Source of the DNA: Bacteroidota bacterium | GTDB lineage: Bacteria > Bacteroidota > Ignavibacteria > Kapaibacteriales > UBA2268 | Reading direction: 5' to 3' | Length of the DNA stretch: 47,284 nucleotides | NCBI GenBank assembly: GCA_004322215.1 | Contig: SCSM01000037.1 | Coordinates: 1-47,284 of the forward strand | Shown: piece by piece, positions 717-14,759 of the stretch | Position numbering within the stretch: the first letter of the stretch is position 1 | Layout of the letters: each line of letters opens with the position of its first letter | Position numbers and translations under genes: made by a program | Notes under the pieces: model-generated | The model's input: only the letters and a program-made list of their open reading frames with translations | What the model was told of the DNA's origin: nothing | Database searches by the model: none

Positions 717-926
717 ATGGAAGATAAATTTTTTAGTAAAAAGTATTGTGATAGATGTGGTAATGTCTTGGATGCTCGCACTATGTCTTGGTTCAACGAT
801 GATACAATTTGCATGAATTGTTCAGATAAGGAATCAGCAATAAAAAAGAAACTTCAAGATGGTGGGAAAAGTTATGAAGGATGTGGCTATATACCTGATG
901 TAAACAAGCAAGAGGCAATCAAATGA
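717..926 (+). CDS. Small zinc-ribbon protein
   Basis: This 69-aa product has two CxxC knuckles (CDRCG and CMNCS) about 22 residues apart, enclosing TMSWFNDDTIC. The arrangement is typical of small zinc-finger proteins in Bacteroidota conjugative elements and phages, which often share a TMSxFNxDxIC core. The ATG at 717 is chosen because it is preceded by aaggtg; an in-frame ATG at 642 would add an unlikely N-terminus that overlaps the upstream terminator. The stop overlaps the next start (ATGA), so the two are translationally coupled. A role in nucleic-acid or protein binding is inferred from the ribbon only. Confidence 0.75.
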   Translation: MEDKFFSKKYCDRCGNVLDARTMSWFNDDTICMNCSDKESAIKKKLQDGGKSYEGCGYIPDVNKQEAIK

Positions 927-1279
927 ATTCAGCAAAAGAAATAAAAGATAATTTAAACTTGTTTACAGGTACAGAACATTATTATCAACACCCATTTGGA
1001 ATCATGTATACCGATGGAATTAAATTTTTAGCTGACAGTTGTGCTTGCTACTGGCTCATAGATGCTGTTGCCAGTTGGCAGTATGATGAGAAAGTTAAGC
1101 AGGAAGAATTTCAAGTGTATAAACTGAAAGTCAATGAAGATAAATCAGCAATTCTTAATATAGAAGATGGCAACTACAATATCATTCAAACACAAGAAAT
1201 TGATTTTACTGATTTTCCACTTGAAGAAATTCAATTGTGGTTTACAAATAACGTTCTATACTTACCTTCGGAGCATTAA
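923..1279 (+). CDS. DUF6876-like protein
   Basis: This 118-aa protein contains FTGTEHYYQHPFGIMYTDG and ADSCACYWLIDAVASWQ, the hallmarks of the DUF6876 family as I remember it. That family is common in phages and mobile elements and has no assigned function. The start overlaps the zinc-ribbon gene stop by 4 bases (ATGA), indicating co-translation. There is no signal peptide. The length matches the usual 100-130 aa. The family identity rests on remembered motif similarity and should be confirmed by a profile search. Confidence 0.7.
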   Translation: MNSAKEIKDNLNLFTGTEHYYQHPFGIMYTDGIKFLADSCACYWLIDAVASWQYDEKVKQEEFQVYKLKVNEDKSAILNIEDGNYNIIQTQEIDFTDFPLEEIQLWFTNNVLYLPSEH

Positions 1280-2040: not shown

Positions 2041-2088
2041 CTATTCCCACCATTACTTTGATGCATTAAAGAGCAGTAGAGCGTTCTT

Positions 2089-2163
2089 TGCCAGTTTCTA
2101 TGGTGCTGTACCTGCGCGTGTTCCCCACACGTTTACTGTTAGATAGTAAACTGGCACTTTATT
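2089..2163 (+). other. Structured RNA region / complex terminator
   Basis: A 9-bp outer stem (tgccagttt at 2089-2097 with aaactggca at 2148-2156) encloses a second hairpin (cgtgt at 2117-2121 with acacg at 2127-2131). It is followed by ctttattt. The 50-nt interior is GC-richer than its surroundings. It may simply terminate the small-gene cassette, or be a structured RNA ending in its own terminator. It does not fold as a tRNA. Confidence 0.45.
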
Positions 2164-2440
2164 TAAAGGTGAGTTATTTGAAAATATTTATAGAGTTATA
2201 TATTGACTAATATAATAAAGTCTTGTCATAACTCATTTATCACGTTTGTCGCATTCTTGATATAATATAGTTCAGTTATCAATAAGTCAAACTGAATCAA
2301 TATGAATAAGAATTTGAAAAGTATAAAATATAAACGCTCATTTATGTTTTCAATAAACTTAAATAAAAGTCATTGACATAATTTTAGAGATATGTAAAAG
2401 ATAATTCAAGTTTATACATTTTTGTTTTAGAGTGAAATTT
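2164..2440. promoter_or_regulatory. Recombinase upstream region with inverted repeats
   Basis: This AT-rich non-coding stretch precedes the serine recombinase. It holds two perfect inverted repeats: tgagttat (2170-2177) with ataactca (2228-2235), and ttcagtt (2271-2277) with aactgaa (2290-2296). Serine resolvases and invertases commonly act on dyad sites just upstream of their own genes, so this is a candidate res-like or regulatory region. The repeats alone cannot distinguish a recombination site from an operator. Confidence 0.35.
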
Positions 2441-3052
2441 ATGAAAACTATTTCGTATTTGCGTGTGTCAACCATTGACCAGGACATCGAGAAGAATAAA
2501 ACTGATATTCTCAAACTTGCTAATGAAAAACAATTAGGAAATGTCATATTTGTTGAAGAAAAAATCTCTGGTACAGTAAGTTGGAAGAAAAGAAAGATAC
2601 ATGATATTGTGTATAGTCTTACTGCTGGAGACAACATTATTGTCAGCGAACTTTCACGTTTAGGTCGTTCAATGTTAGAATGCATGGAGATTCTTTCAAT
2701 TGCTACAGAAAAGAAAATCAATATTTATTCTGTTAAAGGTAATTGGAGTTTAGATAATTCCATTCAGTCAAAAATAATTGCTATGGCATTTTCTATGGCA
2801 AGTGAGATTGAAAGAGATTTGATAAGTTCTCGTACCAGGGAATCTTTACGGATAAAAAAGTTGAATGGAATGAAACTCGGTCGTCCCGTTGGGAGCGGTA
2901 GTTCAAAACTTGATGAATTTAAAGTTGAGATAGAAGCTCTGTTAAATAATGGTTCATCAAAACGTTTCATTGCCAAGAGATATGGAATAACAGAACAAGG
3001 TCTTTTTCACTGGCTGAGAAAGAACAAAGAGAAATTGGAAAAAAAAAGTTAA
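2441..3052 (+). CDS. Serine recombinase, resolvase/invertase family
   Basis: This 203-aa site-specific recombinase cuts DNA through a 5'-phosphoserine link. Motifs run in family order: YLRVSTIDQD with the nucleophile Ser10, SELSRLGRSMLE around residues 68-79 (catalytic Arg pair), then the long E-helix (SMASEIERDLISSRTRE) and a KLGRPVGS linker. A C-terminal HTH (SKRFIAKRYGITEQGLFHWLRKN) completes it. The length is typical of small resolvases and invertases. The ATG at 2441 is preferred over an in-frame GTG at 2432 because MKTISYLRVST matches the family start. Inverted repeats upstream may be its target. It could resolve dimers, invert a segment or act as a transposon resolvase. Confidence 0.92.
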   Translation: MKTISYLRVSTIDQDIEKNKTDILKLANEKQLGNVIFVEEKISGTVSWKKRKIHDIVYSLTAGDNIIVSELSRLGRSMLECMEILSIATEKKINIYSVKGNWSLDNSIQSKIIAMAFSMASEIERDLISSRTRESLRIKKLNGMKLGRPVGSGSSKLDEFKVEIEALLNNGSSKRFIAKRYGITEQGLFHWLRKNKEKLEKKS

Positions 3053-3138
3053 TGATGAGTAATCCCATTCAAAGATTTACAAATTAAGTTTGATATTTTG
3101 TTTAATTTGATATAAACAACAAATATAAATCAATAAGA

Positions 3139-3164
3139 AAGGCTGACTATATAAAGTCAGCCTT
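3139..3164. terminator. Hairpin between convergent genes
   Basis: A 9-bp perfect stem (aaggctgac / gtcagcctt) lies between the recombinase (+) and the minus-strand gene ending at 3226. The T-tract is weak on both strands (ttatct on plus, tcttattg on minus). It is probably a shared bidirectional terminator. Confidence 0.6.
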
Positions 3165-3225
3165 ATCTAACACGTCTGTTAACACATCATCTTATACATA
3201 CAATATAAATATGAATCAGTATGAA

Positions 3226-3657
3226 CTATAAAATTTTCAATTCATACATTGCTTTATTGACCATATTTTTTATTTCAAGAAAAGCATGATATATTTCAGA
3301 ATAAAGTTCTCCAGAAAATAAATTAATTTCCCGATAATTTTCATTTACTCCGATAGCTAAGTCAATCGAAGAATTAATGTTTGAATATCCAATTGAGAAT
3401 TCAGTGGTATTTAATTTATTGGAAATTGTTTCTTTAATCTTTCCAATATATTCCGTTATATCCAAAGATAATATCATCTTATAACTTGCATCAACATCAG
3501 CTATTAAATCTTTTTGAAGATTATCTAATGAATTAGCTTGTTCATAAGAAAAAATTGAACTGTCTAATAAAACAAATACAAAATTATCTTTATCAAATAA
3601 GACATATTCACACCCAATAATGCTATCAGGATTTACTAAAGAATAAACATCTAACAT
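3226..3657 (-). CDS. Hypothetical protein, last gene of the clamp/PLP operon
   Basis: This is a 143-aa soluble protein with no recognised family. The ATG at 3657 is preferred over a start at 3699 because it has aaggtg at suitable spacing and avoids overlap with the PLP enzyme gene. The sequence alternates beta strands (YVLFDKDNFVFVLLDSS) with an amphipathic C-terminal helix (ELYSEIYHAFLEIKNMVNKAMYEL), suggesting a compact alpha/beta fold. No Cys/His cluster or catalytic pattern stands out. It follows the PLP gene by about 34 bases on the same strand and is likely co-transcribed. Confidence 0.6.
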   Translation of the reverse strand: MLDVYSLVNPDSIIGCEYVLFDKDNFVFVLLDSSIFSYEQANSLDNLQKDLIADVDASYKMILSLDITEYIGKIKETISNKLNTTEFSIGYSNINSSIDLAIGVNENYREINLFSGELYSEIYHAFLEIKNMVNKAMYELKIL

Positions 3658-3691
3658 AAAACACCTTATAAAAATTTTTAAAAAATAGTTA

Positions 3692-4579
3692 TTAATCAAA
3701 TAAAAAATTATTATTTCCTATAATCCATATCAATGTCTTGTCTGAATCAGCAATTCCAAGTTGCTGTTTGTTTCTCAAAAAAAATTGAACTGCTTTCGAT
3801 TCGTATTTGACATTAAGCTCAAATTCAGGATTGATAAAATGCTTAACATTTTTTGCATAGGGATAAGTAGTATCAATGATAAATTCATATTGTCTATTAA
3901 TTCTGAATTTATTTAGTATCGAATCAACATATTTTCTTCTATCATAACCAGAAATTTGAGTTCCGATGATTCGTTTAACTTGCTTCTTGAACTGTTCAAT
4001 ACCGACAATGATACCTGCCATCGTTATAGCACTCCCACAAGGAATAATTAAATTATCTAAATAATCTGGAAGATTAAGTACCTGATTTGCTGTCGAACCA
4101 ATAATAGCATCCGGGTAATCAGATAAATTAATTCCAAAATTTACAACTTCATAGTTGTTCTCTTTGATTATATCATTTACTCTGCTTGTTACAACATTTC
4201 GGTATCCGATTTTTGCTACTACTTTTATTTCAGCCCCAAGTTGATAAGCCAATGATAATGGTTTATACCTCTTAGCTGTTTCTTCAACGGAATCAATCTT
4301 TCCACCAATACATATCATGCAAGGGACATTATTATCTTTTGCTATCTTCGCCACTATTGCACTCTGTGGAGATGATAATGAGACCGGATTAGTAATTAAT
4401 CCGGTTATTTTCTCATTCTTTGATTTCATGCTCTCATAAAGCAACTGCATCTGACGAACTTTACCTCCTCCGAGTTCATTATAATCTTCGTAAGGGAGAT
4501 AAAGGTCATCTCGTTTATATAGTATACCGTCGTATTCTTCGACTGGTGTTAATTCTGATAAAGCAGTTATTAGTTCCAT
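3692..4579 (-). CDS. Fold-type-II PLP-dependent enzyme (phage type, ACC-deaminase/cysteine desulfhydrase-like)
   Basis: This is a 295-aa enzyme of the tryptophan synthase beta superfamily. RDDLYLPYEDYNELGGGKVRQ carries the Schiff-base lysine (Lys40), matching GGNKVRK of ACC deaminase and D-cysteine desulfhydrase. NPVSLSSPQSAIVA (around 64-77) occupies the substrate-loop position usually reading QSNH. PCGSAITMAG (around 180-189) is the phosphate-binding loop. The ATG at 4579 is chosen because aaggag precedes it; an in-frame ATG at 4627 would overlap the clamp-like gene. The changed substrate loop argues against a housekeeping ACC deaminase. PLP enzymes of this sort are known in phages, some within DNA base-hypermodification pathways. 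Substrate unknown. Confidence 0.75.
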   Translation of the reverse strand: MELITALSELTPVEEYDGILYKRDDLYLPYEDYNELGGGKVRQMQLLYESMKSKNEKITGLITNPVSLSSPQSAIVAKIAKDNNVPCMICIGGKIDSVEETAKRYKPLSLAYQLGAEIKVVAKIGYRNVVTSRVNDIIKENNYEVVNFGINLSDYPDAIIGSTANQVLNLPDYLDNLIIPCGSAITMAGIIVGIEQFKKQVKRIIGTQISGYDRRKYVDSILNKFRINRQYEFIIDTTYPYAKNVKHFINPEFELNVKYESKAVQFFLRNKQQLGIADSDKTLIWIIGNNNFLFD

Positions 4580-4601
4580 TATTTTCTCCTTAATAAAATT
4601 A

Positions 4602-5402
4602 TTAACATTCAACTTCTTCTTCTTCATAATTACATCTCCCGAATGAAATTTTGGTATTAGATAATAAGCTATTAAAAATCACGCTGCTTTCTGTGATAAA
4701 GACAGTGTAGTCTTCGTTCTTATCGAGGTATTTCAGGTATTCTTTGGTAATAAGACAGTTATAATTTAATTCTTTTATAAATTTAATTTCTGTTTTATAC
4801 CTTGTAGAATAATTTTTACCTTCAAAAATAATATAACTACTATCATCAATCTTAGCTGTCTTAATATAAACATCTGTACAAGCCTCATCTTTAGAGTCTT
4901 CAATTACACTTTTTAAAACTTTTGAACTTAATTTAAACTCCAAATAGGATGAAGATGTATCAAAAACTTGGTTTATGACATCATCTGGCATATACTTAAA
5001 TAAGCCCAATTGAGCACAACCATGAATTACTGTTCTGTCTGTACTTTGTAGAATAATAGTTTTCGCTACAAATTCACCTTCATTATTTGCCTCATAATTA
5101 AAAATTATATAAGTGTTATCTACAGTGATAAATTTTTTTAAAATGTTTAAAAAATTCTTTACATGGTATAAACCTATTTTAATTTTCTCAGTAGGGCATT
5201 GCTTATTATCTGTCAGTTCAAAGCATTCACAAAGATTAATTATGTTATATTTAACAGCTGTTCTGGCAACTGTATATGATTTCACCACAGCCGTTAAATC
5301 TGGATTAATTTCCAATAAAAGATTAGAATCAACAACCTCAAATATTTTAAGGAAATCAATTAGCATTGATAAGTCTTTAGCTCTAAAATTTAGCTCTTTC
5401 AT
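4602..5402 (-). CDS. Putative sliding-clamp-like protein (T4 gp45/PCNA fold)
   Basis: By eye this 266-aa acidic protein follows the two-domain layout of T4 gp45-type clamps. A helix (LIDFLKIFEVVDSNLLLE) leads into a strand-rich region, then YHVKNFLNILKKF followed by TYIIFNYE at the end of domain 1. A second helix/strand cycle (FKLSSKVLKSVIEDSK, then SSYIIFEG) follows. It closes with a strand/helix unit (CLITKEYLKYLD) and paired strands (DYTVFITESSVIFNS). gp45 has matching elements in the same order. Start ATG at 5402 has aggag upstream and overlaps the ParB-like gene stop by 4 bases. No polymerase or clamp loader is in the window. The assignment is a fold-level guess. Confidence 0.45.
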   Translation of the reverse strand: MKELNFRAKDLSMLIDFLKIFEVVDSNLLLEINPDLTAVVKSYTVARTAVKYNIINLCECFELTDNKQCPTEKIKIGLYHVKNFLNILKKFITVDNTYIIFNYEANNEGEFVAKTIILQSTDRTVIHGCAQLGLFKYMPDDVINQVFDTSSSYLEFKLSSKVLKSVIEDSKDEACTDVYIKTAKIDDSSYIIFEGKNYSTRYKTEIKFIKELNYNCLITKEYLKYLDKNEDYTVFITESSVIFNSLLSNTKISFGRCNYEEEEVEC

Positions 5403-6388
5403 TTTTTACTCCTGGTTTTACTTGGTTTCATGGTAATTTTATTATAATTTTCAATTGCTTTTTTGATTAATTCACTTGGACTGATGCCTTCTATTTCAGC
5501 AAGTTTATTTATCAAAGCATAGGTATTTTCGTCAACTTGAAGTCTTGTGATTTTAGGTTTTGACACTTTTGGCAAAACCTGCTTTTTAGCCTCTGAAAAT
5601 GTTAATGTATGGTCTTTGACCTTAGCGTACAAGTCAGGATGTTCTTTCAAGAGTTCATAGTAATCCTTTATTGAAGTAGTGCCAATGTCACCTACTAAAT
5701 CAGCGATATATTTATATGTATGCACTGGTTCAGCTAATGAAGGTGTCTTACCAGATCTGATTTCACTGATTTTCTTGCGGAGCTTTTCTTTTGAATCTAA
5801 TTTAACCCCATCAACCATTTCTGCACCTATACATGCAAGGTCTGATTTAGTATGGTGGTATCTGTTAAGGTTTTTTATTCTCAAAAATTCTGGTATGTCC
5901 TCAACTGTACCTGTGTAATAGACACAACGGTAGGGTTTTCCCAACTCAAAACAGGCATTAGCTATGTTTCGTCCATGTAAGACAAAACCATCTAATATTG
6001 TTACATTTTCTTTTTGATCGAATTCAAGTAAAGACAATTTAAAACCATTCATAGACCGCTTTTTCATTAATGGTTCTCCATTCCTTATCGGATGAAATTT
6101 TGGTTCTTCACTTGAGTATACATAAGAGATATTTGATGATTCGCTGGTATTCTCATCACCAAGAGAATAAGTTGGTGGATTAGTAATTTCATTAGTAGTT
6201 TTTTCTACTGAAGTAGATTCAACATTTTCGATTATCGTATCTATTTTTTGATTAACAACAATCAATTCATTGTTGGATTCTGACTGTTCAGGAACAAATA
6301 CTTCCATACCTTCTTCATCATCAAGAATGTTGGTATTTTCTGGAATTTCCTGAATATCATTTGCTTTTGTATTAGATTTATTTTTCAT
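5399..6388 (-). CDS. ParB-like (ParB/sulfiredoxin fold) protein with C-terminal ribbon-helix-helix
   Basis: This 329-aa protein has three parts. Residues 1-100 are a low-complexity acidic Asn/Glu/Ser-rich tail. Residues about 105-205 form a ParB/Srx-like domain with ILDGFVLHGRNIANACFELG (compare LDGRNRLRA in phage ParB-like proteins) and FLRIKNLNRYHHTKSDLA (compare NlhRRHLtesQrA). Residues about 275-318 (RLQVDENTYALINKLAEIEGIS followed by PSELIKKAIENY) read as a CopG/MetJ-type ribbon-helix-helix. The usual DGR triplet reads HGR here, so catalysis may be altered. The stop overlaps the clamp-like start. Roles could be partition, transcription control or, as in some ParB-fold enzymes, small-molecule phosphorylation. 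Confidence 0.75.
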   Translation of the reverse strand: MKNKSNTKANDIQEIPENTNILDDEEGMEVFVPEQSESNNELIVVNQKIDTIIENVESTSVEKTTNEITNPPTYSLGDENTSESSNISYVYSSEEPKFHPIRNGEPLMKKRSMNGFKLSLLEFDQKENVTILDGFVLHGRNIANACFELGKPYRCVYYTGTVEDIPEFLRIKNLNRYHHTKSDLACIGAEMVDGVKLDSKEKLRKKISEIRSGKTPSLAEPVHTYKYIADLVGDIGTTSIKDYYELLKEHPDLYAKVKDHTLTFSEAKKQVLPKVSKPKITRLQVDENTYALINKLAEIEGISPSELIKKAIENYNKITMKPSKTRSKK

Positions 6389-6541
6389 AATTCATCTACT
6401 TTAATTATATTATAAAAATTTTATTAACTATATTATATTAAACCAATTACATGCTCTGTCAAATTTTGACAATAACTTACCGTGGCAACCTGTTAAGGTC
6501 GTTCTAATTCTGCTTAAACGATATTTGATATACTTTCTGAA

Positions 6542-6553
6542 TGGGAGCTCCCA
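6542..6553. promoter_or_regulatory. Palindrome in the operon leader
   Basis: A 12-bp perfect palindrome (tgggagctccca) lies in the 215-bp non-coding gap between the ParB-like gene and the HTH gene. It stands out as GC-rich in an AT-rich stretch. It is a plausible operator for the RHH or MerR-type HTH protein next to it. The rest of the gap shows no gene. Confidence 0.4.
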
Positions 6554-6603
6554 CATTCAATTTTGTATTTTTATTACTTCCTCCTTTCTGATTATTAATA
6601 ACT

Positions 6604-6951
6604 TTAAAATTTATTCAAAATATATTCTGATTCAACTTTTCTGCGAATCTCTGATTTTGCTCTGTTGTAATGTTTCTCGTTGAGAATGAACTCCCGGACA
6701 TTTTCCATAGTGAAAAAAGTATGCTTGCCCGTTGGGCGATAGAATCCTATTTTTCCTTCGCTACAGTATTTATAAATAGTAGCGCGTTTTAATCCTGTTA
6801 AGTTTGAAAAGTCATCTACCGTTAACCAGGGTTTGTTCTCAATCAAAATTTTCTTTTTCAATTCAGCTTTCATTTCACAAATACGACCTTCAACAACAGC
6901 TACTATCAACTGGTTTAAGAGTATTTCTATATTAGGTTGCGTATTTGTCAT
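6604..6951 (-). CDS. MerR-like HTH protein, excisionase / HTH_17 family
   Basis: This 115-aa protein has a short N-terminal helical region and then the HTH_17 core: WLTVDDFSNLTGLKRATIYKYCSEGKIGFYRPTGKHTFF (split here as WLTVDDFSNLTGLKR and ATIYKYCSEGKIGFYRPTGK), followed by MENVREFILN. This winged-helix pattern is shared by excisionases and element-encoded regulators in Bacteroidota. It has a basic C-terminal extension. It stands alone between two gaps of about 215 bp, upstream of the ParB/clamp/PLP genes on the same strand. It probably controls those genes or directs excision. No Shine-Dalgarno is visible. Confidence 0.82.
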   Translation of the reverse strand: MTNTQPNIEILLNQLIVAVVEGRICEMKAELKKKILIENKPWLTVDDFSNLTGLKRATIYKYCSEGKIGFYRPTGKHTFFTMENVREFILNEKHYNRAKSEIRRKVESEYILNKF

Positions 6952-7110
6952 ATTTAACTTTTCTTAATTATTACAATTCAAAATTACTTTAATTGACGTT
7001 AGAAAGCAATAGGTATTTCATTGATTTTAAATGAGTTAGTGCGTATTTAGTACGGTGGGTTTAATCAGCAATACTAATTATGGTGAAATTTTTAAGGTTA
7101 TTAAATAATG

Positions 7111-7141
7111 CAAAAAAAAAGACCGTATTATATACGGTCTT
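7111..7141 (-). terminator. Terminator of the replication-initiator-like gene
   Basis: A 10-bp perfect stem (aagaccgtat at 7119-7128 with atacggtctt at 7132-7141) with a 3-nt loop is followed, reading the minus strand, by an uninterrupted run of about nine T. It lies 30 bases after the stop of the 7173-7973 gene. Confidence 0.88.
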
Positions 7142-7172
7142 TAGAGTAAAGGACGATTAGTAAAAATTATGA

Positions 7173-7973
7173 TCACTTATGATTAATATATTCAATTAAA
7201 TCATCTAATGTAACATTAAACGATAGCAAAAGTAATTCGATTTGGCTCCATTTTTTTTTATTCGATTTCTTGAAATTTATTTCACTCATTTTTATTATCT
7301 CTTCTTCCAAAATATCATAGGATTTTAAGGTAATCAGAATTCCAGAACATTTTATATTTATTTCGTTCAATTTTATCTTTTCTTCTCTTCTTTTTCTTCT
7401 AATTGCTTTTTTTTCTTCATCTGTTTTATAATAATAATCTCTGAATGAATCAGTATGAGCTGTAAACCATTCTGGAGAGGCAAGTAATTCCCTTTTATCA
7501 TTAATATAATAGGTTTTACTTGAATTATAATCTGTAGCTTTTTGTTTTTTTAATATTTCAAATTCTTTTGTTGTCATTGGTTTTTTATCATAGCATACTT
7601 CACCTTTATTATCTACACGATAAATAAAATTTTCAGACAATAATTTTTTCAATGACTTCTCAACTTGAGACTTTTTTATTCCCAATAACTCAACAAAAAA
7701 GTTGGTTTTTTCATTAAAATATTTACCTTCAAAGTTTCTGGCTAATATGGTAAAAAATATTATTCTATCAGACAAAGATAAATCCTCCCTTGAAATAGCA
7801 GTTGTATCTAATAAAGGAAGTCTCATAAAAACATAATCATCATTATTGAATTGTTCGATTATATCATTTAATTCTTGCCACTCGGTGAATCTTTTTTCTT
7901 TGGCTGGGACTGATTCTACAACTGGTTCTTTTTGAACCTGTTTTGCTTTTACTATTAAAGTTTTTTTAACCAT
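7173..7973 (-). CDS. Replication-initiator-like winged-helix protein
   Basis: This 266-aa basic protein contains LSLSDRIIFFTILARNFEGK, then NFFVELLGIKKSQVEKSLKKLLSENFIYR. That is a winged-helix pattern seen in phage and plasmid replication initiators and Bacteroidota mobile-element HTH proteins. A very basic stretch (KKAIRRKRREEKIK) follows in the second half, then a C-terminal helical region. The ATG at 7973, with aaggattg upstream, is preferred over an in-frame TTG at 7979. A 12-bp inverted repeat with three CCAAATTA-type half-sites lies just upstream, suiting an origin or auto-regulatory operator. It could instead be a transcription factor. Confidence 0.55.
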   Translation of the reverse strand: MVKKTLIVKAKQVQKEPVVESVPAKEKRFTEWQELNDIIEQFNNDDYVFMRLPLLDTTAISREDLSLSDRIIFFTILARNFEGKYFNEKTNFFVELLGIKKSQVEKSLKKLLSENFIYRVDNKGEVCYDKKPMTTKEFEILKKQKATDYNSSKTYYINDKRELLASPEWFTAHTDSFRDYYYKTDEEKKAIRRKRREEKIKLNEINIKCSGILITLKSYDILEEEIIKMSEINFKKSNKKKWSQIELLLLSFNVTLDDLIEYINHK

Positions 7974-7994
7974 TTTCAATCCTTAGTTTTTACT

Positions 7995-8035
7995 GATAAT
8001 TTGGAAGCCAAATTACAAGATATTTCCAAATTATC
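7995..8035. promoter_or_regulatory. Inverted repeat / iteron-like sites upstream of rep-like gene
   Basis: A 12-bp perfect inverted repeat (gataatttggaa at 7995-8006, ttccaaattatc at 8024-8035) lies 21 bases from the start of the rep-like gene. A third half-site, ccaaatta at 8008-8015, falls between, 18 bp from the matching one at 8026-8033. Such clusters are typical of initiator or repressor binding sites. Confidence 0.55.
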
Positions 8036-8120
8036 AATATATGGATTGCTAATCTGTATCATATTTTATATAAGTTATTTATGTCATTGGAATGTCAGAG
8101 TAAAACTGTGATTTCGAGAC

Positions 8121-8140
8121 ACATACGAATTAACGTATGT
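8121..8140. repeat. Inverted repeat near the tRNA junction
   Basis: A perfect 7-bp inverted repeat (acatacg / cgtatgt, 6-bp spacer) sits 80 bp from the tRNA-Leu 3' end. It could be a protein-binding site near the element boundary; no T-tract follows, so it is not a terminator. Confidence 0.4.
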
Positions 8141-8180
8141 AGGAAGTATTTTTGGCTGTTTTTTCGACTACACCTTAAAC

Positions 8181-8206
8181 GAAAAAAAGACACTCACAAG
8201 TGTCTT
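8181..8206 (-). terminator. Terminator downstream of tRNA-Leu
   Basis: A stem agacact (8188-8194) / agtgtct (8199-8205) has a 4-nt loop, with a run of seven A on the left (a T-run for the minus strand). It lies 15 bases beyond the tRNA 3' end. A T-rich tract on the right could make it bidirectional. Confidence 0.8.
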
Positions 8207-8220
8207 ATTTTTCAATTCAG

Positions 8221-8304
8221 TGCCCGGAACAGGAATCGAACCTGCACGAGAGTTCTCTCACTACACCCTGAATGTAGCGCGTCTGCCAGTTCCGCCATCC
8301 GGGC
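8221..8304 (-). tRNA. tRNA-Leu(CAG)
   Basis: The minus strand folds as a type II tRNA. The acceptor is GCCCGGA paired with TCCGGGC, plus discriminator A73. The D-arm contains GGCAGAC. The anticodon stem CTACA/TGTAG carries loop TTCAGGG, giving anticodon CAG for the CUG leucine codon. A long variable arm (GAGAGAACTCTC) marks tRNA-Leu, and the T-arm reads GGTTCGATTCC. CCA is not encoded. A Bacteroidota-type promoter lies upstream and a terminator downstream. Its 3' side faces the accessory region, and its 3' part is duplicated in inverted orientation at 9154-9211. Confidence 0.96.
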
Positions 8305-8317
8305 AGGATTAGGAGTA

Positions 8318-8350
8318 CAAAATTAACCTTTATTCGATTATAATACAAAA
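8318..8350 (-). promoter_or_regulatory. Promoter of tRNA-Leu
   Basis: On the minus strand TAATTTTG (8325 to 8318) matches the Bacteroidota -7 element TAnnTTTG. A TTTTG (8350 to 8346) lies 20 bases upstream in the -33 position. The spacing to the tRNA 5' end is short (13 bases), consistent with a tRNA promoter. Confidence 0.5.
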
Positions 8351-8524
8351 ACAAATCAATTGGAAATGGGAATTGGGCGAATGTCATATTGAATTTGATT
8401 CTGCCTCCATTGGCTAATTGACAAACTATGATTGATTTATTAAACTGAATATTGTGATTCAAAATTTATTATGGGATTTGAAATTTTAAATTCCTACAAC
8501 TCATCAATTAAAATTTAAAACTTA

Positions 8525-8668
8525 TCACTTAACGACCACCACACCCTTCGTCAGTGTCACTGCAGGCGAACGTAGTGTAACAAAATACAAGCCGCTGGGA
8601 AAACTGCTTATGTCTATTGAATGTCTCTGCTCATTCATTGCATTTACATTTATTAAGGAAAAAACCTA
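8525..8668 (-). pseudogene. Truncated T9SS C-terminal sorting domain (3' end of a lost gene)
   Basis: Reading the minus strand to the stop at 8525, the frame gives NEQRHSIDISSFPSGLYFV, then TLRSPAVTLTKGVVVVK. That is the end of a type A T9SS sorting domain (IDxSxxPxGxYFVxL...KxVVVK). Upstream the frame is blocked by TAG and runs into the integrase remnant in another frame, so the front of the gene is gone. It is the tail of a former secreted protein, cut by the integrase-bearing DNA. The 220 bp between this stop and the tRNA gene show only the tRNA promoter. Confidence 0.75.
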
Positions 8669-8912
8669 CAGAATTCCCTAATAATTCAAGTTCTTTTGTA
8701 TCCCTGATAATTTCAGCTTTGTATAAAATATCTTCATCTTCTTTTATCATTCTTTTGCTATTACTAATCTTCATGTTTAAGAATTTGCGATCTCGTTTAT
8801 AATCCTTATTATAATCGAGATAGATGCTATATCCTGTCGGAAGCGGATTGAGCCTTATCTTTATCTTTTTACTGACATTTACTCTCTTAATTTCTTCTGC
8901 TAATTGTTTCAT
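8631..8912 (-). pseudogene. Truncated tyrosine-recombinase (integrase) N-terminus
   Basis: This 93-aa frame begins MKQLAEEIKRVNVSKKIKIRL and continues TGYSIYLDYNKDYKRDRKFLNMKI and KAEIIRDTKELEL. That matches the N-terminal arm-type DNA-binding segment of Bacteroidota integrases (pattern xGxYSLYLDYYxxGKRxxEFL, then AexIRxxrExEL). The core-binding and catalytic R/H/R/Y domains are absent. The last residues are junk where the frame runs into the T9SS sorting-tail remnant. It is best read as a broken integrase left by an element that used the neighbouring tRNA. A genuine small protein is a less likely alternative. Confidence 0.7.
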
Positions 8913-9153
8913 ATAATGTTATTTTTTTATTAAAAATATTGTATTTCAGAATTATATATGTTAAAGACAAATATACTAATATTTTTCTATGGGAACAAAT
9001 TAAATAATGACAAATACTGACAAATGAAATTAAAGGAAACAGATTCTCATGGAATGATGAAAATAATAAGAAATATATAAGTATTTGGGATAACAAAAAG
9101 TTGTATCATTGACAAATTCCATGAAGATTAGTATATTTCAATAGTTTACTAAT

Positions 9154-9211
9154 TTCAGGGTGTAGTGAGAGAACTCTCGTGCAGGTTCGATCCCTATTCC
9201 GTGCAACTGAA
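9154..9211 (+). repeat. Inverted copy of tRNA-Leu 3' part (attachment-site remnant)
   Basis: The first 38 bases are identical to the tRNA-Leu gene from the first base of the anticodon loop to the T-loop. Similarity then continues to the tRNA end and 5 bases beyond, with three mismatches and one indel. It is on the opposite strand from the intact tRNA. Duplications that begin at the anticodon loop are the usual product of tyrosine-integrase insertion into tRNA genes. The surrounding 8913-9248 gap holds nothing else that I recognise. Confidence 0.85.
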
Positions 9212-9248
9212 ATAATAATTAAAATGCAAGATGAATCAGTAATTAATT

Positions 9249-11060
9249 TTATATATCATAAAAGATAATAATATGTTTATCTTCACTGCTATAACCATCC
9301 TGATAAATATATGCCAGAAGAATTGAATCGTCATTGTTTGTGCAAAGAACCGATGAACTGAAATTCAAAGTTTTATATTTTTCGATTTCAGTATAATTAT
9401 TTGCATCCATCTTATAAATTGAGCCATCATTATAATTATTACCGGAACCGAAAAGAAATCTGCTATTCTTGCTGAAAACAATATAATTAACACCTTGTCC
9501 AAATGACCATTGTCCAATAAGGTTGCTTAAATCACTTGTTTTATAACAGCAAACACCATTACCAGTGGAACAACGTAAAGCAACTTTGGACATATCATAA
9601 TTAAAAGCAAAATCTTTGAAAAATTGACCTGGTAATTTTATATTTGATTTTTGAATTACAGTGTCGTTTATTGTATAAATAGTTGAATTATAACTTTCAG
9701 CGACATACAACAACATTGCTTGATTATCTAATGCAATACCGCTACCTCTGATATTCCTATCTTCCTTGATAAAATTCATATTGTCCTGTCCATAAGTTGA
9801 TAAGCTGTTAGACCCGATAATAAATATTCTCCTGTTTCTACTATCAATCTGGATATCTGAATTGGACTGTGCATTTATTGTGTAATGGCTTGTATTGTAT
9901 GAATTGATGTCAACGATTGTGATTTTACCTGTATTACTGTAAATAATATATATCTTTTTGTCATCTTCTGACATCGCCATTGATATAGGGTTCAAATACG
10001 GAAGGATAATATTTGTAACAAGTTTTTTTTGCTTTGAATCAATGACATGTAGTATTTTCTTATCTCTGTTCAGTGCATATACATAACCATTTTGTTTATT
10101 GCTAATCATCTTTGATATAATGCCATCTGTCCAAATTCCTTCTTTTACTGTTATATCTATTGAATTTGAGATACTTATTTTATTGTATTGGTCATATAAT
10201 TTCCCAGTCAACTTAAAGCTCCCCATTTCTAAATGTGTAAGAGTGAATTTATTAGTAAAATATGTTGCTGTTCCAATCAGGGAATCATCCCTATAAAATT
10301 CAATCTTTTTAACTTCTTCATTTCTGAAATCATCGTCATTTATGGAATAGTAAACATCTATATCTTCACCAGGGAGGAAAATGTTATCGGGGCTTATTGG
10401 CTGTTTAATTTCCAGCGTAGGTGGCTGATATTCACTTATTACTACCCGGTTATCCATATATGAAAAACCTTCGACTCCTTTAATATCAACAGCTTTAGCA
10501 TAGATTTTATAAGTTCCGAATGTAACATCACTCCATATAAATGAAAATGGGTATATTGAATCCGTTGCGTATAAATTATCGTTTATAAAAAGCTGAGTAT
10601 ATTTTATTATACCGTTTGAACTAGAGGTAGTGACATCAACTATAATCGAATCACCAATTGAAATTTCATTTCTGTTAAGTTTAACCTGTACAGATGGCTT
10701 TTTCGAATTTTCTGATACATACACTTGAATTTCCCTTGATAAAGCACTTTCATTTCTGTCATCGTAAGCCCTTAACCTTAAATGATAATAACCAGGTTTT
10801 GAGAATAACAAAACTTTTGAGAAAGGTGATACCGAGTCGGTGAAAAATACTTCAGAATCAATTATAAAATCAACCCTTGTAATCTTTCCATCATTAACTT
10901 TTGCATCTGCTATAACATTAACTGAATCCCCCTCAGTTAATTCCAGATTACCCACAGGATTATAGAAATCAACTTTTATTTTTATATCGGAGAAATTAAG
11001 AGGGTCATCCTTACAAGCAAACAAAATAATTAAAAGCAAAATAATAAGATATTTTTTCAT
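9249..11060 (-). CDS. Lipoprotein: Ig-like repeats plus beta-propeller (third gene of array)
   Basis: This 603-aa protein has a lipoprotein signal with lipobox LFAC and lipid-bearing Cys16, followed by KDD, which fits the K(D/E)2 surface-export signal reported for some Bacteroidota lipoproteins. Residues about 25-310 contain three Ig-like modules of the type KITRVDFIIDSEVFFTDSVSPF. The remainder repeats YncE-like propeller blades (YVYALNRDKKILHVID, KKIYIIYSNTGKITIVDI, RRIFIIGSNSLS). It is the last of three same-architecture genes, one base after its neighbour. It is presumably an outer-membrane or surface scaffold that binds polymers or proteins. No enzyme motif is seen. Confidence 0.8.
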   Translation of the reverse strand: MKKYLIILLLIILFACKDDPLNFSDIKIKVDFYNPVGNLELTEGDSVNVIADAKVNDGKITRVDFIIDSEVFFTDSVSPFSKVLLFSKPGYYHLRLRAYDDRNESALSREIQVYVSENSKKPSVQVKLNRNEISIGDSIIVDVTTSSSNGIIKYTQLFINDNLYATDSIYPFSFIWSDVTFGTYKIYAKAVDIKGVEGFSYMDNRVVISEYQPPTLEIKQPISPDNIFLPGEDIDVYYSINDDDFRNEEVKKIEFYRDDSLIGTATYFTNKFTLTHLEMGSFKLTGKLYDQYNKISISNSIDITVKEGIWTDGIISKMISNKQNGYVYALNRDKKILHVIDSKQKKLVTNIILPYLNPISMAMSEDDKKIYIIYSNTGKITIVDINSYNTSHYTINAQSNSDIQIDSRNRRIFIIGSNSLSTYGQDNMNFIKEDRNIRGSGIALDNQAMLLYVAESYNSTIYTINDTVIQKSNIKLPGQFFKDFAFNYDMSKVALRCSTGNGVCCYKTSDLSNLIGQWSFGQGVNYIVFSKNSRFLFGSGNNYNDGSIYKMDANNYTEIEKYKTLNFSSSVLCTNNDDSILLAYIYQDGYSSEDKHIIIFYDI

Positions 11061-11061
11061 T

Positions 11062-12900
11062 TTATTTCAGTCTGAATATGAATAGAAATTTTCTGTCCGA
11101 ATAATACGTTGCAAAATAACTGTCATCAGAAGTATTAGCCATGGCACCGCTCCCTTGGTAAACCCATAACTTTTTAATATTTGTATAATAATCCGTAGAA
11201 TTCAGGTATACATAGTTATTTGTGCTGCCATGATCGTTAGTAGAAAAAAATGAATATTGTCCCGAGTAACTAAATCCACCAAATCCGGTTAGTTTTAATG
11301 TTCTGATAATATCGAAATTATTGTTGACATCCAATTCCATCCAAGAACCTGATGTAGCCGAATTGCCGTCATCGTTGTAAAGAATAGTTGAATTACCCGG
11401 CTTGAGAATAAAATTCGATTGGGAACTGAACTTTGAGCTCGAATCAATCAAGTTTAATCCATTAGAATTAACTCTGTATTTTAAAATATATTCTTCATAG
11501 AAATATTTTACGTATTTCAGGTAAAGCAATTTATTTATCCGGTCATAAACAACACTTCTAATATTTTTATCCTGTAAACGGAAAAGCTCATTATTGATAT
11601 TCAAAGTGTTGAGTACTATTACACCGGTTGAACAAGCAGCGAAAAGTCTATCGTTTTCATCATCTAATTCAATGTCATTACATACTGACGGTGCAGTATA
11701 AGTTCTTACTGAACCATTTTGGCAATTTATTGCAGTAATAACCGGACTGTCATAATAATTGACATAAATAATATTATTTTTTTGTGAATATTTAAAATTA
11801 TTAGCATTGTTTACTGTTAAACTATATTCCCTGATAATTATTTGCTGTTCAAGGTCAATCTTATAAATTTTTCTTCCATAGCGGCATAAGGCAAATAAAG
11901 TAGTAGGACTATCGGCAATAACCAATTTATAAACATCTTCCGGTAAGTAAAATCCATTAACAACATTAAACTCAACTTCAGCTGTGGAAGACAAGCCATT
12001 ATTACTGACAGCTTCGAGCTTCAACTTATACTTACCCGTTTTCAAACCTGTTAAAAAGTATTCCGACCATGATGTCCATCTGTCCGTTTTGTCATAATTT
12101 ATTAAATGAGCTGTCTGGCTGTCATTTAGATAAACATTAATGAAATCAATCCATCCACCAATGACAGTAGTTTCAAAATTATAATAAAATTTTTGGTCGG
12201 GCAGGAAATTGTTTTCAGTATAAGTAACAATACTCAAATTAAGTTTCGGTGCTTCATATTTTAATACCTGATAATTAACAATATTCGAATAGAAATACCT
12301 GCCTGTTTTAAATTCCAGCTTCAAATAGAATTTATGATTTCCCGGAGGCAGAGAATCAATTTTATATGAATAAGGATAAGTTTGGTCTTCGAATAAAATA
12401 TTATCATCCATATAGAAGGATACTCTTTCGATTTGTTCCGGATTAATATTGAAAGATGACATGCTCATAAGTAGAGTATCACCTTCCATAAAAGTAATTT
12501 GGTAATAATATGGTTTGCAATTCAGGTAAAAATTAATACTGTCCTTGCTCGGCACATATAATACTTTATTTGGGGATAGTGTTTCAACGTAGGAATTATC
12601 AATAGCTTTCATCTTTATTAAATGATAACCGCGAGCTACATCATTCAGTGTAAAAATATAAGGACTACTGGTTTTTTCAGAATAAATGTATCCGTCCATG
12701 TAAAGGATAACTTTCATTATGCTACCGTCTTTGTCAGCAGCAAGTGCTTCAATATCACATTTGCCGGCGGGTTCCATTAATATCGTATCAGCTTTGATGA
12801 CAAAACTAACTGTCGGAGGAACATTAACAGTTGAAGCAGGATTGTCATCACAACCAACAAAGATAATTAATAAAGTTATTAAAATAAGAATTTTTTTCAT
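11062..12900 (-). CDS. Lipoprotein: Ig-like repeats plus beta-propeller (second gene of array)
   Basis: This 612-aa protein has the same layout as its neighbours. The signal peptide has lipobox FVGC (Cys17) followed by DDNP. Ig-like modules include GSIMKVILYMDGYIYSEKTS, IERVSFYMDDNILFEDQTYPY and a divergent third. From about residue 325 a propeller runs with blades such as LFALCRYGRKIYKIDL, NIIYVNYYDSPVITAIN and DRLFAACSTGVIVLN. Sequence identity to the flanking paralogues looks low although length and order are conserved, suggesting an old duplication. It lies 20 bases downstream of the first gene and 1 base before the third. Function unknown; structural or binding role inferred. Confidence 0.8.
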   Translation of the reverse strand: MKKILILITLLIIFVGCDDNPASTVNVPPTVSFVIKADTILMEPAGKCDIEALAADKDGSIMKVILYMDGYIYSEKTSSPYIFTLNDVARGYHLIKMKAIDNSYVETLSPNKVLYVPSKDSINFYLNCKPYYYQITFMEGDTLLMSMSSFNINPEQIERVSFYMDDNILFEDQTYPYSYKIDSLPPGNHKFYLKLEFKTGRYFYSNIVNYQVLKYEAPKLNLSIVTYTENNFLPDQKFYYNFETTVIGGWIDFINVYLNDSQTAHLINYDKTDRWTSWSEYFLTGLKTGKYKLKLEAVSNNGLSSTAEVEFNVVNGFYLPEDVYKLVIADSPTTLFALCRYGRKIYKIDLEQQIIIREYSLTVNNANNFKYSQKNNIIYVNYYDSPVITAINCQNGSVRTYTAPSVCNDIELDDENDRLFAACSTGVIVLNTLNINNELFRLQDKNIRSVVYDRINKLLYLKYVKYFYEEYILKYRVNSNGLNLIDSSSKFSSQSNFILKPGNSTILYNDDGNSATSGSWMELDVNNNFDIIRTLKLTGFGGFSYSGQYSFFSTNDHGSTNNYVYLNSTDYYTNIKKLWVYQGSGAMANTSDDSYFATYYSDRKFLFIFRLK

Positions 12901-12920
12901 ATTCTATTTTTCCGGTTAAA

Positions 12921-14759
12921 TTATAAATCAATAAAAATAACGTAGCTGGTCATGTCCGAATATGAACCATCCGAACCTGTGACGATAATCTGATTGCTCT
13001 TTTCATCGAGAAGCAGTTTCACTCGTTCATGTTTCCAGGGAACTCTGTACTCTGCTATTAGTGATTTGTTCGTTAAATCATATTTTTCGACAATCATCTC
13101 ATCCTCGAAAATTACATAAAGGTATTTGCTGTCCGACGTTAAAACAGATGACTGGATGGTATTCTTAAGAGTTATCTGCTTATTAATATTTTCGATATTG
13201 CTTGTCAATATTTCAGTTATTTTTACATTTTCATAATCAGTATTATTATATGATTGAAAATAAATCATTGAATTATCACTATTAAAGTTGATTAGATCTT
13301 TTATTTTACCTGTGATTTGCCCGACATCGGAATTGGTTTGTTCAAGCACCGGTTGTCCGCTTATTTTTGCACTGAATTTATGAAGCTTGTTAGGAGGGGT
13401 AGAAGACTCTAATATGTAAAAATCTTGATGAATGTTGTCAAATATCAGGTTTCTCCCGGTAACCCCAGCTATCGAATATACTATTTTATCATTATTTATA
13501 TCATAAACCAATAAATTATTTCCGCTTAATAAATATAGTAAATTATCTTGAATATCAATATCTAAATCATAAACTGGCTTTGATATTGCATTGTTTCGGA
13601 ATGTTTTTGTACTAATATCAAAAATGCTGAATTTATTTATATTTGAATAACCTATAAATACTTTTTGTAAACCAGGAGAAATTGCAATCGAATTAGGGTT
13701 AATAAATGGAAGCTTATAATGCTGAATATTATCAGTGTTATTTCTGTCAGCAATAATAAGTTCGCTATTATTGTCATCAATAAGATAAAGGAATGAATCA
13801 GTCATCTTAACATCAATAATATTCCCCTCAAAATCAAAACCGTCAAGAACAGTTATTTTTACAGTATCAGAATAATGTATATCGTTTTGTTTATAATATG
13901 CTTTTGCATACAAAGTATGAACACCTGCTTGCAGATTGTAAATAGTAAATTCTTCTGAACTTTTATATAATGTCGTGTAAAGTTCGTAATCGTAATACAC
14001 TTCTATTTTATTAAGTGGATGATTGCTGTTATTGTTACTTGCTGTTACTGTTGTCCTGAAATATTTTTTTGTTGATTTTGTATAGGTTGGTGGTGGATTA
14101 TAGATGTCGAAATGAATATTTGATTCACCAAAATCCGTAACTTTCGATAATATTTCGCCGGATTCTCCTTTATGCCCCTTATCATCCCAGGCAATTGCTT
14201 TAAGACTGTAATCTCCTATTTTAAGCGGTAGCCAGTCAAACTCGAAAGGGGGTAAAGAATCGGATAAATAAAGTTCATTATTTTCATAAAAATCAATTTT
14301 TACGATGCTGCCGTTCGGACTATAAACATCCGGAACAAAATGCAATGTGTCATTTATATACCTATTATAATTCCCATAGGGTGCTAAGCTTATAACAGGC
14401 AAGAAATCATGCGTAACAAATGCTTTAATCAGTTCGGATTTATATTGTTGTTCACCTTTAACAGCCACAAGTCTAAAATAAAATACTCCGGTTGTCTTAC
14501 TGCTCCATTTGAATTCATAAGGTTCCTGATTCTTTGATTCAATTAGAAGGTTATTAACAAATAAATCAACCCTTTCAATTTCTTTTGGTTTTGAAACGTA
14601 TGCAGTGATTGTGATATCTTCATCAACTTTTAATTTTGCACTATCAGAGATTGAGATAAATCCAATCCTGATTACATTATCAACTGCTACGGGGCTGTCT
14701 TTGCATGAGATTACAATGAATAGTAATCCTAACATTAATAAAGAAAATGTTAATTTCAT
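12921..14759 (-). CDS. Lipoprotein: Ig-like repeats plus beta-propeller (first gene of array)
   Basis: This 612-aa protein is the promoter-proximal member of the array. The lipobox is VISC (Cys19), followed by KDS. The Ig-like modules carry the repeated pattern EIERVDLFVNNLLIESKNQEPYEF, GSIVKIDFYENNELYLSDSLPPF and LNKIEVYYDYELYTTLYKSS (quoted here in part). From about residue 310 a propeller follows with blades such as SFLYLIDDNNSELIIAD, KVFIGYSNINKFSIFDI and LLYLLSGNNLLVYDI. It contains no catalytic signature. The 415-bp gap upstream separates it from a divergent membrane-protein gene. Ig modules probably form a stalk that presents the propeller. Confidence 0.8.
   Translation of the reverse strand: MKLTFSLLMLGLLFIVISCKDSPVAVDNVIRIGFISISDSAKLKVDEDITITAYVSKPKEIERVDLFVNNLLIESKNQEPYEFKWSSKTTGVFYFRLVAVKGEQQYKSELIKAFVTHDFLPVISLAPYGNYNRYINDTLHFVPDVYSPNGSIVKIDFYENNELYLSDSLPPFEFDWLPLKIGDYSLKAIAWDDKGHKGESGEILSKVTDFGESNIHFDIYNPPPTYTKSTKKYFRTTVTASNNNSNHPLNKIEVYYDYELYTTLYKSSEEFTIYNLQAGVHTLYAKAYYKQNDIHYSDTVKITVLDGFDFEGNIIDVKMTDSFLYLIDDNNSELIIADRNNTDNIQHYKLPFINPNSIAISPGLQKVFIGYSNINKFSIFDISTKTFRNNAISKPVYDLDIDIQDNLLYLLSGNNLLVYDINNDKIVYSIAGVTGRNLIFDNIHQDFYILESSTPPNKLHKFSAKISGQPVLEQTNSDVGQITGKIKDLINFNSDNSMIYFQSYNNTDYENVKITEILTSNIENINKQITLKNTIQSSVLTSDSKYLYVIFEDEMIVEKYDLTNKSLIAEYRVPWKHERVKLLLDEKSNQIIVTGSDGSYSDMTSYVIFIDL

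Follow-up and report, generated by a model that had tools for sequence, protein, structure and literature searches.

Several described systems resemble, in one part or another, the operon considered here. Thymidine hypermodification, of the ViI and M6 type, is a pathway of phages. Features in common with it are the homologous PLP gene of Ackermannviridae, the position of the PLP gene in phage Montesquieu next to a gene annotated as thymine pyrophosphorylase, and the mixture of radical-SAM, PLP and acetyltransferase-like genes. However, many PLP loci adjoin an exocyclic-amine-type methyltransferase (MTase) instead. Besides, no pyrophosphorylase or 5-hmdU kinase was found by Pfam among eight proteins of the window (the whole 47,284-nucleotide stretch of DNA analysed), in a scan that is blind to pyrophosphorylase, because the annotated one of locus L010 was also unmatched.

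In the carboxymethylcytosine system CmoX/CmoA/CmoY, phages hypermodify DNA by means of an enzyme resembling DNA methyltransferases, and ParB-domain proteins are encoded nearby (PMC12783734); both features have counterparts among the loci compared here. Unlike CmoX, which has the SPPC motif and the partner CmoA in that description, the MTases linked here carry TSPPY and have a PLP partner. The SPPC motif was not found: the window contains no MTase, and those elsewhere possess TSPPY, or SCPPY in phages Vincenzo and Pam4. Fusions of the ParB-CTPase fold to N6_N4 methyltransferase exist in phages (PMC12704722), and phage ParB-methyltransferase fusions have already been published (PMC12704722, PMC12783734). 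As in the present loci, the ParB-like domain either neighbours a PF01555 methylase or forms one protein with it. The loci here have a PLP gene or domain in addition, whereas the main text of that paper contains neither 'pyridoxal' nor 'PLP' (PMC12704722). The literature search revealed no described PLP-ParB-methyltransferase system of DNA modification, although an earlier description is possible, notably in Iyer et al. 2013. We put at about even the chance that the operon belongs to a tRNA-Leu element in which a ParB-like/RHH protein and a PCNA-fold clamp constitute a DNA-binding core and a PLP enzyme is cargo, acting on DNA to protect the element.

The operon and the surrounding element

The operon consists of four open reading frames on the minus strand. 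The first gene encodes a ParB-like/RHH protein (5399..6388, 329 aa), followed by the genes of a PCNA-fold sliding-clamp-like protein (4602..5402, 266 aa), a PLP enzyme (3692..4579, 295 aa from the likely start, with the frame open from 4627) and a protein without an assigned family (3226..3657, 143 aa, ATG at 3657). The original prediction of four coupled or nearly coupled genes agrees with these frames and starts: the first two genes share a 4-base ATGA overlap, 22 bases separate the clamp-like gene from the PLP gene, counted from the ATG at 4579, and 34 bases separate the latter from the last gene. This ATG, located behind AAGGAG, is most likely the start of the PLP gene, rather than 4627. 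The 143-aa protein had no match in family searches including Pfam, PHROG and PADLOC and no relative in any of the compared loci. A terminator-like hairpin lies after the last gene (3139..3164, minus strand); the region contains four such hairpins versus 1.3 expected, both strands counted. Upstream of the operon there is a promoter-like site TTGACA-16-TAATAT (6435..6462, minus strand), one of 29 promoter-like matches in the region, a number at chance level (25.2 expected).

Further upstream, the minus strand encodes an HTH_17/excisionase-like protein (6604..6951; PF12728 E 1.7e-9, excise E 1e-7) and a winged-helix-like, possibly replication-type protein with weak matches only (7173..7979; e.g., Phage_rep_O E 0.042). 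On the other side, the plus strand encodes a DUF6876 protein (923..1279; PF21781 E 2.9e-46) and a serine recombinase of the resolvase/invertase type (2432..3052; PF00239 E 4.4e-26). Relatives of three of these proteins were found in the element of locus L015, namely of the recombinase (84.7% identity), the DUF6876 protein (56%) and the excisionase-like protein (34%), the last being encoded immediately upstream of the ParB-like gene. The original prediction did not mention that the operon borders a tRNA-Leu gene.

The tRNA-Leu(CAG) gene was located with ARAGORN at 8220..8304 of the minus strand, and the L015 element adjoins the same tRNA-Leu(CAG). The 3' half of the gene recurs in the same genome at G000:C24:28042-28157 as a 116-bp repeat at 93%, near a tyrosine integrase gene (C24:26620-27813); the C3-C24 join rests on a 91-bp overlap of contig ends. 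The tRNA-Leu(CAG) gene is the probable integration site of a mobile element that includes the operon.

The clamp-like and ParB-like proteins

The clamp-like protein matches the Pfam family Rad1 below the cut-off (E 0.007). The best of the AlphaFold2 models, made from four sequences, had a pLDDT of 75.3 and a pTM of 0.75, and the other four ranged in pLDDT from 71.4 to 56.6. In the predicted model a two-domain PCNA-like fold extends along the whole chain: the Foldseek search retrieved PCNA 5a6d (E 2.6e-11), and the structure comparison gave a Z of 18.3 to 7tid_G, with 228 residues aligned at 3.3 Å. Thus, the protein has a PCNA-type predicted fold, and its earlier designation as clamp-like, which an unrelated fold would have contradicted, is retained.

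The predicted fold likens the protein to PCNA, the 9-1-1 complex and phage sliding clamps (Z about 18), and the nearest viral models are uncharacterised proteins of large phages, including Tenacibaculum phages pT24 and PTm1. It differs from these clamps in the low identity to structural matches (6-14% among the matches listed), and neither a clamp loader nor a polymerase was found next to its gene. The clamp alignment found zero relatives on viral contigs. The search of phage records yielded one weak match, in an uncultured phage of 462 kb (E 5e-3), where PLP, MTase and ParB genes are all absent from the locus. Another match, in genome G088 (E 4.6e-4), was dropped, as the locus has no element genes and a wider profile did not recover it.

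Of the ParB-like/RHH assignment proposed originally, the RHH part was confirmed by an RHH_1 match at the C-terminus (E 1.9e-4, above the Pfam cut-off), while the ParB part proved weak. The Pfam scan of the window protein gave no match to PF02195 (ParB_N) at E up to 1, and a profile of phage ParB proteins matched its relatives in L013 (E 3.5e-6) and L014 (E 0.0018), but the protein itself only at E 0.28. The hhalign comparison gave 86% for the family cores and only 22% with full alignments. The ParB-like region, at approximately residues 100-200, is therefore a putative one, assigned via family members and not from the window protein itself, and is the weakest of the identity calls in the operon. 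A PADLOC match of this protein to Specificity_I (E 0.008) was judged to be due to chance.

The PLP enzyme and its viral neighbourhoods

The PLP enzyme matches the phage family phrog_3650 (E 5.2e-29) and PALP (PF00291, E 1.4e-8), the latter marginally by score (34.9 bits versus a cut-off of 35). Among 33 near-invariant positions, conserved at 90% or more, 32 are intact, including K56 of the GGGKVRQ motif, which we take to be the Schiff-base lysine. A lysine occupies this position in 85 of 86 other sequences and aligns with GGNKLRK of ACC deaminase 1f2d. The profile match, marginal in score, and the conserved lysine assign the protein by sequence to fold-type II, as a phage subfamily of ACC-deaminase-like enzymes, in agreement with the original prediction. 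The curated cut-offs for ACC deaminase and D-cysteine desulfhydrase were not reached (TIGR01275, E 2.7e-7, 30.2 bits versus 289.4; TIGR01274, 21.8 bits versus 392).

Relatives of the enzyme were found in four other genomes among the 123 searched within the order and, with E 0.01 as the limit, in 287 phage records, every one below 60% identity; plasmid records gave no match. The viral scan with the single protein as a query found nothing, and the scan with the PLP alignment revealed relatives on 111 viral contigs. Several candidate features and matches were rejected. A clamp-binding C-terminal tail (NNNFLY) was dropped because similar ends, e.g., GNTNFLR, occur in viral PLP proteins, and the idea that the phosphate loop is decayed, with GSA in place of GSG, because other members also have GSA. 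A PADLOC match to QatC (E 0.06) was considered a chance one, and a match at G013:C631 (E 4.4e-4 over 76 residues) sits, by eye, in a kinase-like protein. A further match, G212, had E 1.9e-12 and is not among the loci compared.

The viral neighbourhood counts cover the 80 relatives retrieved out of 111, grouped into 25 clusters, with an MTase model made from the MTases of sister loci only and the sister loci counted separately. MTase genes were found in 13 clusters, being adjacent to the PLP gene in eight and at most three genes away in 11. In representative loci with both genes the two adjoin in 7 of 12, whereas random placement would give 2.3 (P 0.0017). A radical-SAM gene is adjacent to PLP in seven clusters, with a ParB gene within three genes in four. 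An MTase or a radical-SAM gene is adjacent in 15 of the 25 clusters and within three genes in 18; seven clusters have neither. An iterated MTase profile (adjacency in 10/25 clusters, P 2e-5, ParB in 5/25) had absorbed other methylases and was replaced with the sister-only model (8/25, P 0.0017 and 4/25, respectively).

The linked MTases carry TSPPY in all 19 sequences chosen for alignment and in 30 of 35 ORFs found with the sister model, the other five being short, end-truncated or split pieces. MTase genes also occur without PLP within about 5 kb (4/4 phage loci examined). ParB-domain proteins encoded near phage PLP genes either have a radical-SAM gene as neighbour or are continuous with methyltransferase segments. 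In phage Vincenzo, a gene annotated as ParB and containing a methylase region immediately precedes PLP, and in phage Pam4 a ParB-like segment, a PF01555 methylase segment and a PLP segment are all part of one 829-aa protein. The methylases of both phages have SCPPY instead of TSPPY and so represent another subfamily.

It might be supposed that the PLP protein has an auxiliary metabolic role, with some free amino acid as its substrate in a reaction of the deaminase, desulfhydrase or racemase type, to the advantage of the host, the phage or the element, and that its neighbours are a modular coincidence. Both ACC deaminase and D-cysteine desulfhydrase belong to the superfamily, an MTase is absent from the window, and the largest viral cluster (32/80 loci) contains none of the tested neighbours within the retrieved flank, with an MTase match elsewhere in three of six long records. 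The three Ackermannviridae-like loci also show no MTase, ParB or GNAT-like match within 5-6 kb. We regard this explanation as rather unlikely, given the score far below the TIGR01275 cut-off, the partners adjacent in most of the viral clusters, and the presence of PLP on one chain with other parts, namely ParB-like and methylase segments (Pam4) or GNAT-like domains (sister locus L016).

Sister loci and the proposed role of the operon

Three sister loci have the order ParB-like, clamp, TSPPY MTase, (GNAT-like), PLP and D12 methyltransferase. An MTase precedes PLP in five of five sister loci (L012-L016; L018-L022 are the same contigs and were counted once), either directly or with just a GNAT-like gene or domain intervening. 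Clamp-like and PLP genes occur together outside the window genome in L012, L014 and L015, so the pairing noted originally is not confined to this genome. PLP is present in four of the five clamp loci found in the family, a co-occurrence partly ascertained, as most of the loci that went into the clamp profile carry PLP. A second element (L110), in the genome that holds the window, has ParB-like and clamp genes without PLP.

The window operon has neither of the sister methyltransferases. The own genome (96.7% complete) contains no MTase of the sister family beyond a partial generic match (E 7.3e-5) and no close D12 relative (best 27% identity, E 3.5e-7). Strong PADLOC matches were confined to the sister MTases. 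The absence of both methyltransferases from the operon suggests that the gene set may be partial or decayed, and the operon could be a remnant of an ancestral ParB-clamp-MTase-GNAT-PLP-MTase cassette with the PLP gene out of use. There are 22 bases between the clamp and PLP genes, and in L012 the MTase is split over two ORFs and the PLP copy has stops inside the match (from one TGA to two TGA and one TAA, depending on the search). The window PLP frame, however, is open, with its near-invariant residues present, and the operon spacing and terminator are intact, which makes such decay an unlikely account.

The reading with a ParB/clamp core and PLP cargo follows from the L110 element together with the PLP neighbour data: the ParB-like protein and the clamp look like the core of an element family, and the PLP enzyme looks like cargo from phage-type DNA-modification gene sets, with either a TSPPY amino-methyltransferase or a radical-SAM gene and ParB genes. 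During replication of the element, the ParB-like protein and clamp may mark its DNA or hold on to it. The PLP enzyme, recruited by the clamp, would make or reshape a group derived from an amino acid, on bases that a partner enzyme has prepared. The resulting modification would protect the element's DNA. The window set would then be partial, acting with some other partner or heading for loss. Between the two roles proposed originally, the phage neighbourhoods speak for DNA-associated chemistry, as do the methyltransferase genes between clamp and PLP in the sister loci, and the amino-acid pathway fed by a serine kinase found no support. The operon suggests a way of chemically marking DNA that has not been described, although the methylase expected as a partner is missing from this copy. 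If this reading is right, the large, mostly unannotated phage PLP family would provide a handle on new DNA base modifications, and the operon would be an example of a sliding clamp incorporated among the modification genes of a mobile element.

A specific version of this chemistry, undescribed so far, seems quite improbable. Its first step would fall to the TSPPY enzyme, in which the SAM-binding loop is altered (GWxGR or GWGDR): an exocyclic base amine would receive an amino-acid-bearing group, for which 3-amino-3-carboxypropyl from SAM is one candidate. This group would then be reshaped by the PLP enzyme together with radical-SAM, hydroxylase or GNAT-like partners, and the ParB-like protein and PCNA-like clamp would restrict the reaction to the replicating DNA of the element.

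In the SbnI/SbnA pair, SbnA is the PLP partner. By analogy, a ParB/sulfiredoxin-fold protein would phosphorylate serine and the fold-type II enzyme would use O-phosphoserine, and the ParB fold is indeed present in SbnI and SerK according to the text of PMC12704722, but this route is very improbable here, where the ParB-like protein ends in an RHH DNA-binding domain, ParB and clamp genes occur without PLP, and phage ParB proteins near PLP go with radical-SAM genes or methylase segments.

The operon and its products

The tight coupling of four minus-strand genes claimed in the original prediction was confirmed at the window by an ORF check. The genes for the ParB-like/RHH protein (5399–6388) and the clamp-like protein (4602–5402) overlap by four bases. 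The PLP enzyme gene (3692–4579) starts 22 bases beyond the clamp gene, with an in-frame ATG at 4579 preceded by AAGGAG, and the fourth gene (3226–3657) starts with an ATG at 3657, 34 bases beyond the PLP stop and ahead of a terminator-like hairpin (3164–3139). The operon is best read as a partial DNA-modification cassette inside a mobile element. Phages of the ViI/M6 type have known DNA-modification pathways. In the window's cassette, the PLP enzyme would act on DNA, and the ParB-like protein and the clamp could couple modification to the replication of the element. Such a link to replication has been proposed for plasmid methyltransferases (PMC7736820).

The predicted model of the clamp-like protein, built on four sequences only, reached pLDDT 75.3 and pTM 0.75 (pLDDT 71.4 to 56.6 for the remaining four models). 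Among solved structures it most closely matches PCNA and 9-1-1 clamps (Foldseek E 2.6e-11), with a structural alignment of Z 18.3 over 228 residues at 3.3 Å and 12% identity, so that the proposed clamp fold holds in the predicted model. The viral models that match best are uncharacterized proteins; Tenacibaculum phages pT24 and PTm1 are among their sources.

For the PLP protein, the PALP match (E 1.4e-8) falls less than one bit short of the cut-off, and the phrog_3650 match has E 5.2e-29; the protein scores far under the family cut-offs of ACC deaminase and D-cysteine desulfhydrase. In an alignment with 86 other sequences it retains 32 of the 33 positions conserved at 90% or more, the sole difference being L for I. 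A domain search revealed an RHH domain in the first protein. A profile of phage ParB proteins detected its relative in sister locus L013 (E 3.5e-6) and gave E 0.28 for the window protein; in profile alignments the family cores reached 86% probability and the full alignments only 22%. Sequence comparison suggests the ParB-like part only through these relatives. The fourth protein had no match in any family or profile search.

Sister loci and the partner methyltransferase

Counting the own genome, five of the 123 genomes searched in the order have the PLP gene. Across 395 genomes sampled from the phylum, matches at E 1e-10 were found only in the own genome, G012 and the distant G212, and a pattern scan using one genome per species returned five loci, all on sister-locus contigs. 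L014 encodes ParB-like protein, clamp, TSPPY-motif methyltransferase (MTase), GNAT-like protein, PLP enzyme and D12 MTase, and L015 has the same order with no GNAT-like gene. L012 has the order of L014, with the MTase split and stops in the PLP gene. L013 comprises ParB-like, MTase, GNAT-like and PLP genes, with no clamp in the stretch covered. In L016 the MTase is followed by a single 844-aa protein (2087–4621), where two GNAT-like domains flank the PLP domain. The GNAT-like label denotes a below-cut-off LPG_synthase_C match and mutual similarity of these proteins. The own genome contains no sister-type MTase except one weak partial match, and no close relative of the D12 MTase.

Among 54 genomes in the family, three have the clamp, which occurs at five loci, four of them with PLP; the expected co-occurrence of the two beyond this genome is borne out by L012, L014 and L015. 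The fifth locus, L110 in the own genome (contig C33, 30000–49999), includes integrase, HTH, clamp, ParB-like and DUF5131-like genes and lacks PLP and MTase. It therefore looks like ParB and clamp form the element core and PLP is cargo. The L110 element is small (4200–14616 of that locus); its ParB-like protein has 628 aa, and it also encodes a 413-aa protein related to L016 and C24 proteins (C24 being another own-genome contig).

The MTase on a sister contig (L020) gave a good predicted model (pLDDT 84.3) with a class I methyltransferase fold. In a second look, TrmN, aTrm11 and Trm14 tied as best structural matches (Z 16.0 to 15.2). The aTrm11 record is titled as an m2G/m22G enzyme, which points to an exocyclic-amine enzyme. 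All 19 members picked for the alignment retain TSPPY as well as an arginine in the loop that binds SAM; reading this loop as a sign of an unusual cofactor is speculative.

PLP genes in phage neighbourhoods

When viral contigs were scanned with an alignment, 111 PLP relatives were obtained; the 80 that were kept form 25 clusters at 80% identity. With a model from five sister MTases only, MTase was found in 24/80 loci and 13/25 clusters, adjacent to PLP in eight clusters and at most three genes away in 11. Adjacency occurs in seven of 12 representative MTase-bearing loci against 2.3 expected from random placement (P 0.0017). Other adjacent genes encode radical SAM (7/25 clusters, none with MTase in the stretch covered), a second N6/N4 MTase (5/25), GNAT-like (4/25) and Asp/Arg-hydroxylase-like proteins (3/25), and ParB lies within three genes in 4/25. 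At least one tested family is within three genes of PLP in 20/25 clusters.

In the largest cluster (32/80 loci) none of the tested families is nearby, which counts against the DNA-modification reading. When 20 viral records were searched whole, an MTase match appeared in six, including three of six long records of this cluster. Three Ackermannviridae-like PLP loci have no MTase, ParB or GNAT-like gene inside 5–6 kb. The TSPPY MTase is also found with no PLP gene inside about 5 kb, in all four phage loci examined for this, and PLP is thus an add-on.

In phage Vincenzo, PLP is preceded by a gene annotated as ParB that includes a methylase region, and in phage Pam4 (L011:2789–5278) a single 829-aa protein combines ParB-like, methylase and PLP segments; the methylase motif is SCPPY in both phages. 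The PLP part of the Pam4 protein sits between two methylase motifs. In some T4-like contigs, clamp, clamp loader, MTase and PLP genes lie near one another. Those of L085 and L087 are consecutive, the MTase being of the TSPPY type. Viral loci L031, L082 and L079 have ParB_N-type, radical-SAM and PLP genes in a row.

The probable element at tRNA-Leu(CAG)

A tRNA-Leu(CAG) gene (8220–8304) borders the operon gene set. Its 3′ half is repeated at C24:28042–28157 (116 bp, 93%), adjoining a tyrosine integrase. The window is the whole of contig C3, whose bases 1–91 are the reverse complement of C24 bases 1–91, and a mobile element of roughly 36 kb spanning the putative C3–C24 join is therefore possible. 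By eye, C24 genes close to this join resemble ordinary respiratory and regulatory genes. Next to the same tRNA-Leu(CAG), genome G007 has an element whose recombinase is 84.7% identical to that of the window and which also encodes a DUF6876 relative. The window also contains an ORF (8631–8912) that on visual inspection looks like the N-terminal portion of a tyrosine integrase and has no Pfam match, and at 9132–9222 part of the tRNA-Leu 3′ half is repeated in inverted orientation; together they are probably what is left of a further element at this tRNA-Leu. Right of the tRNA, 9249–14759 encodes three tandem lipoprotein-like proteins of similar size (603–612 aa).
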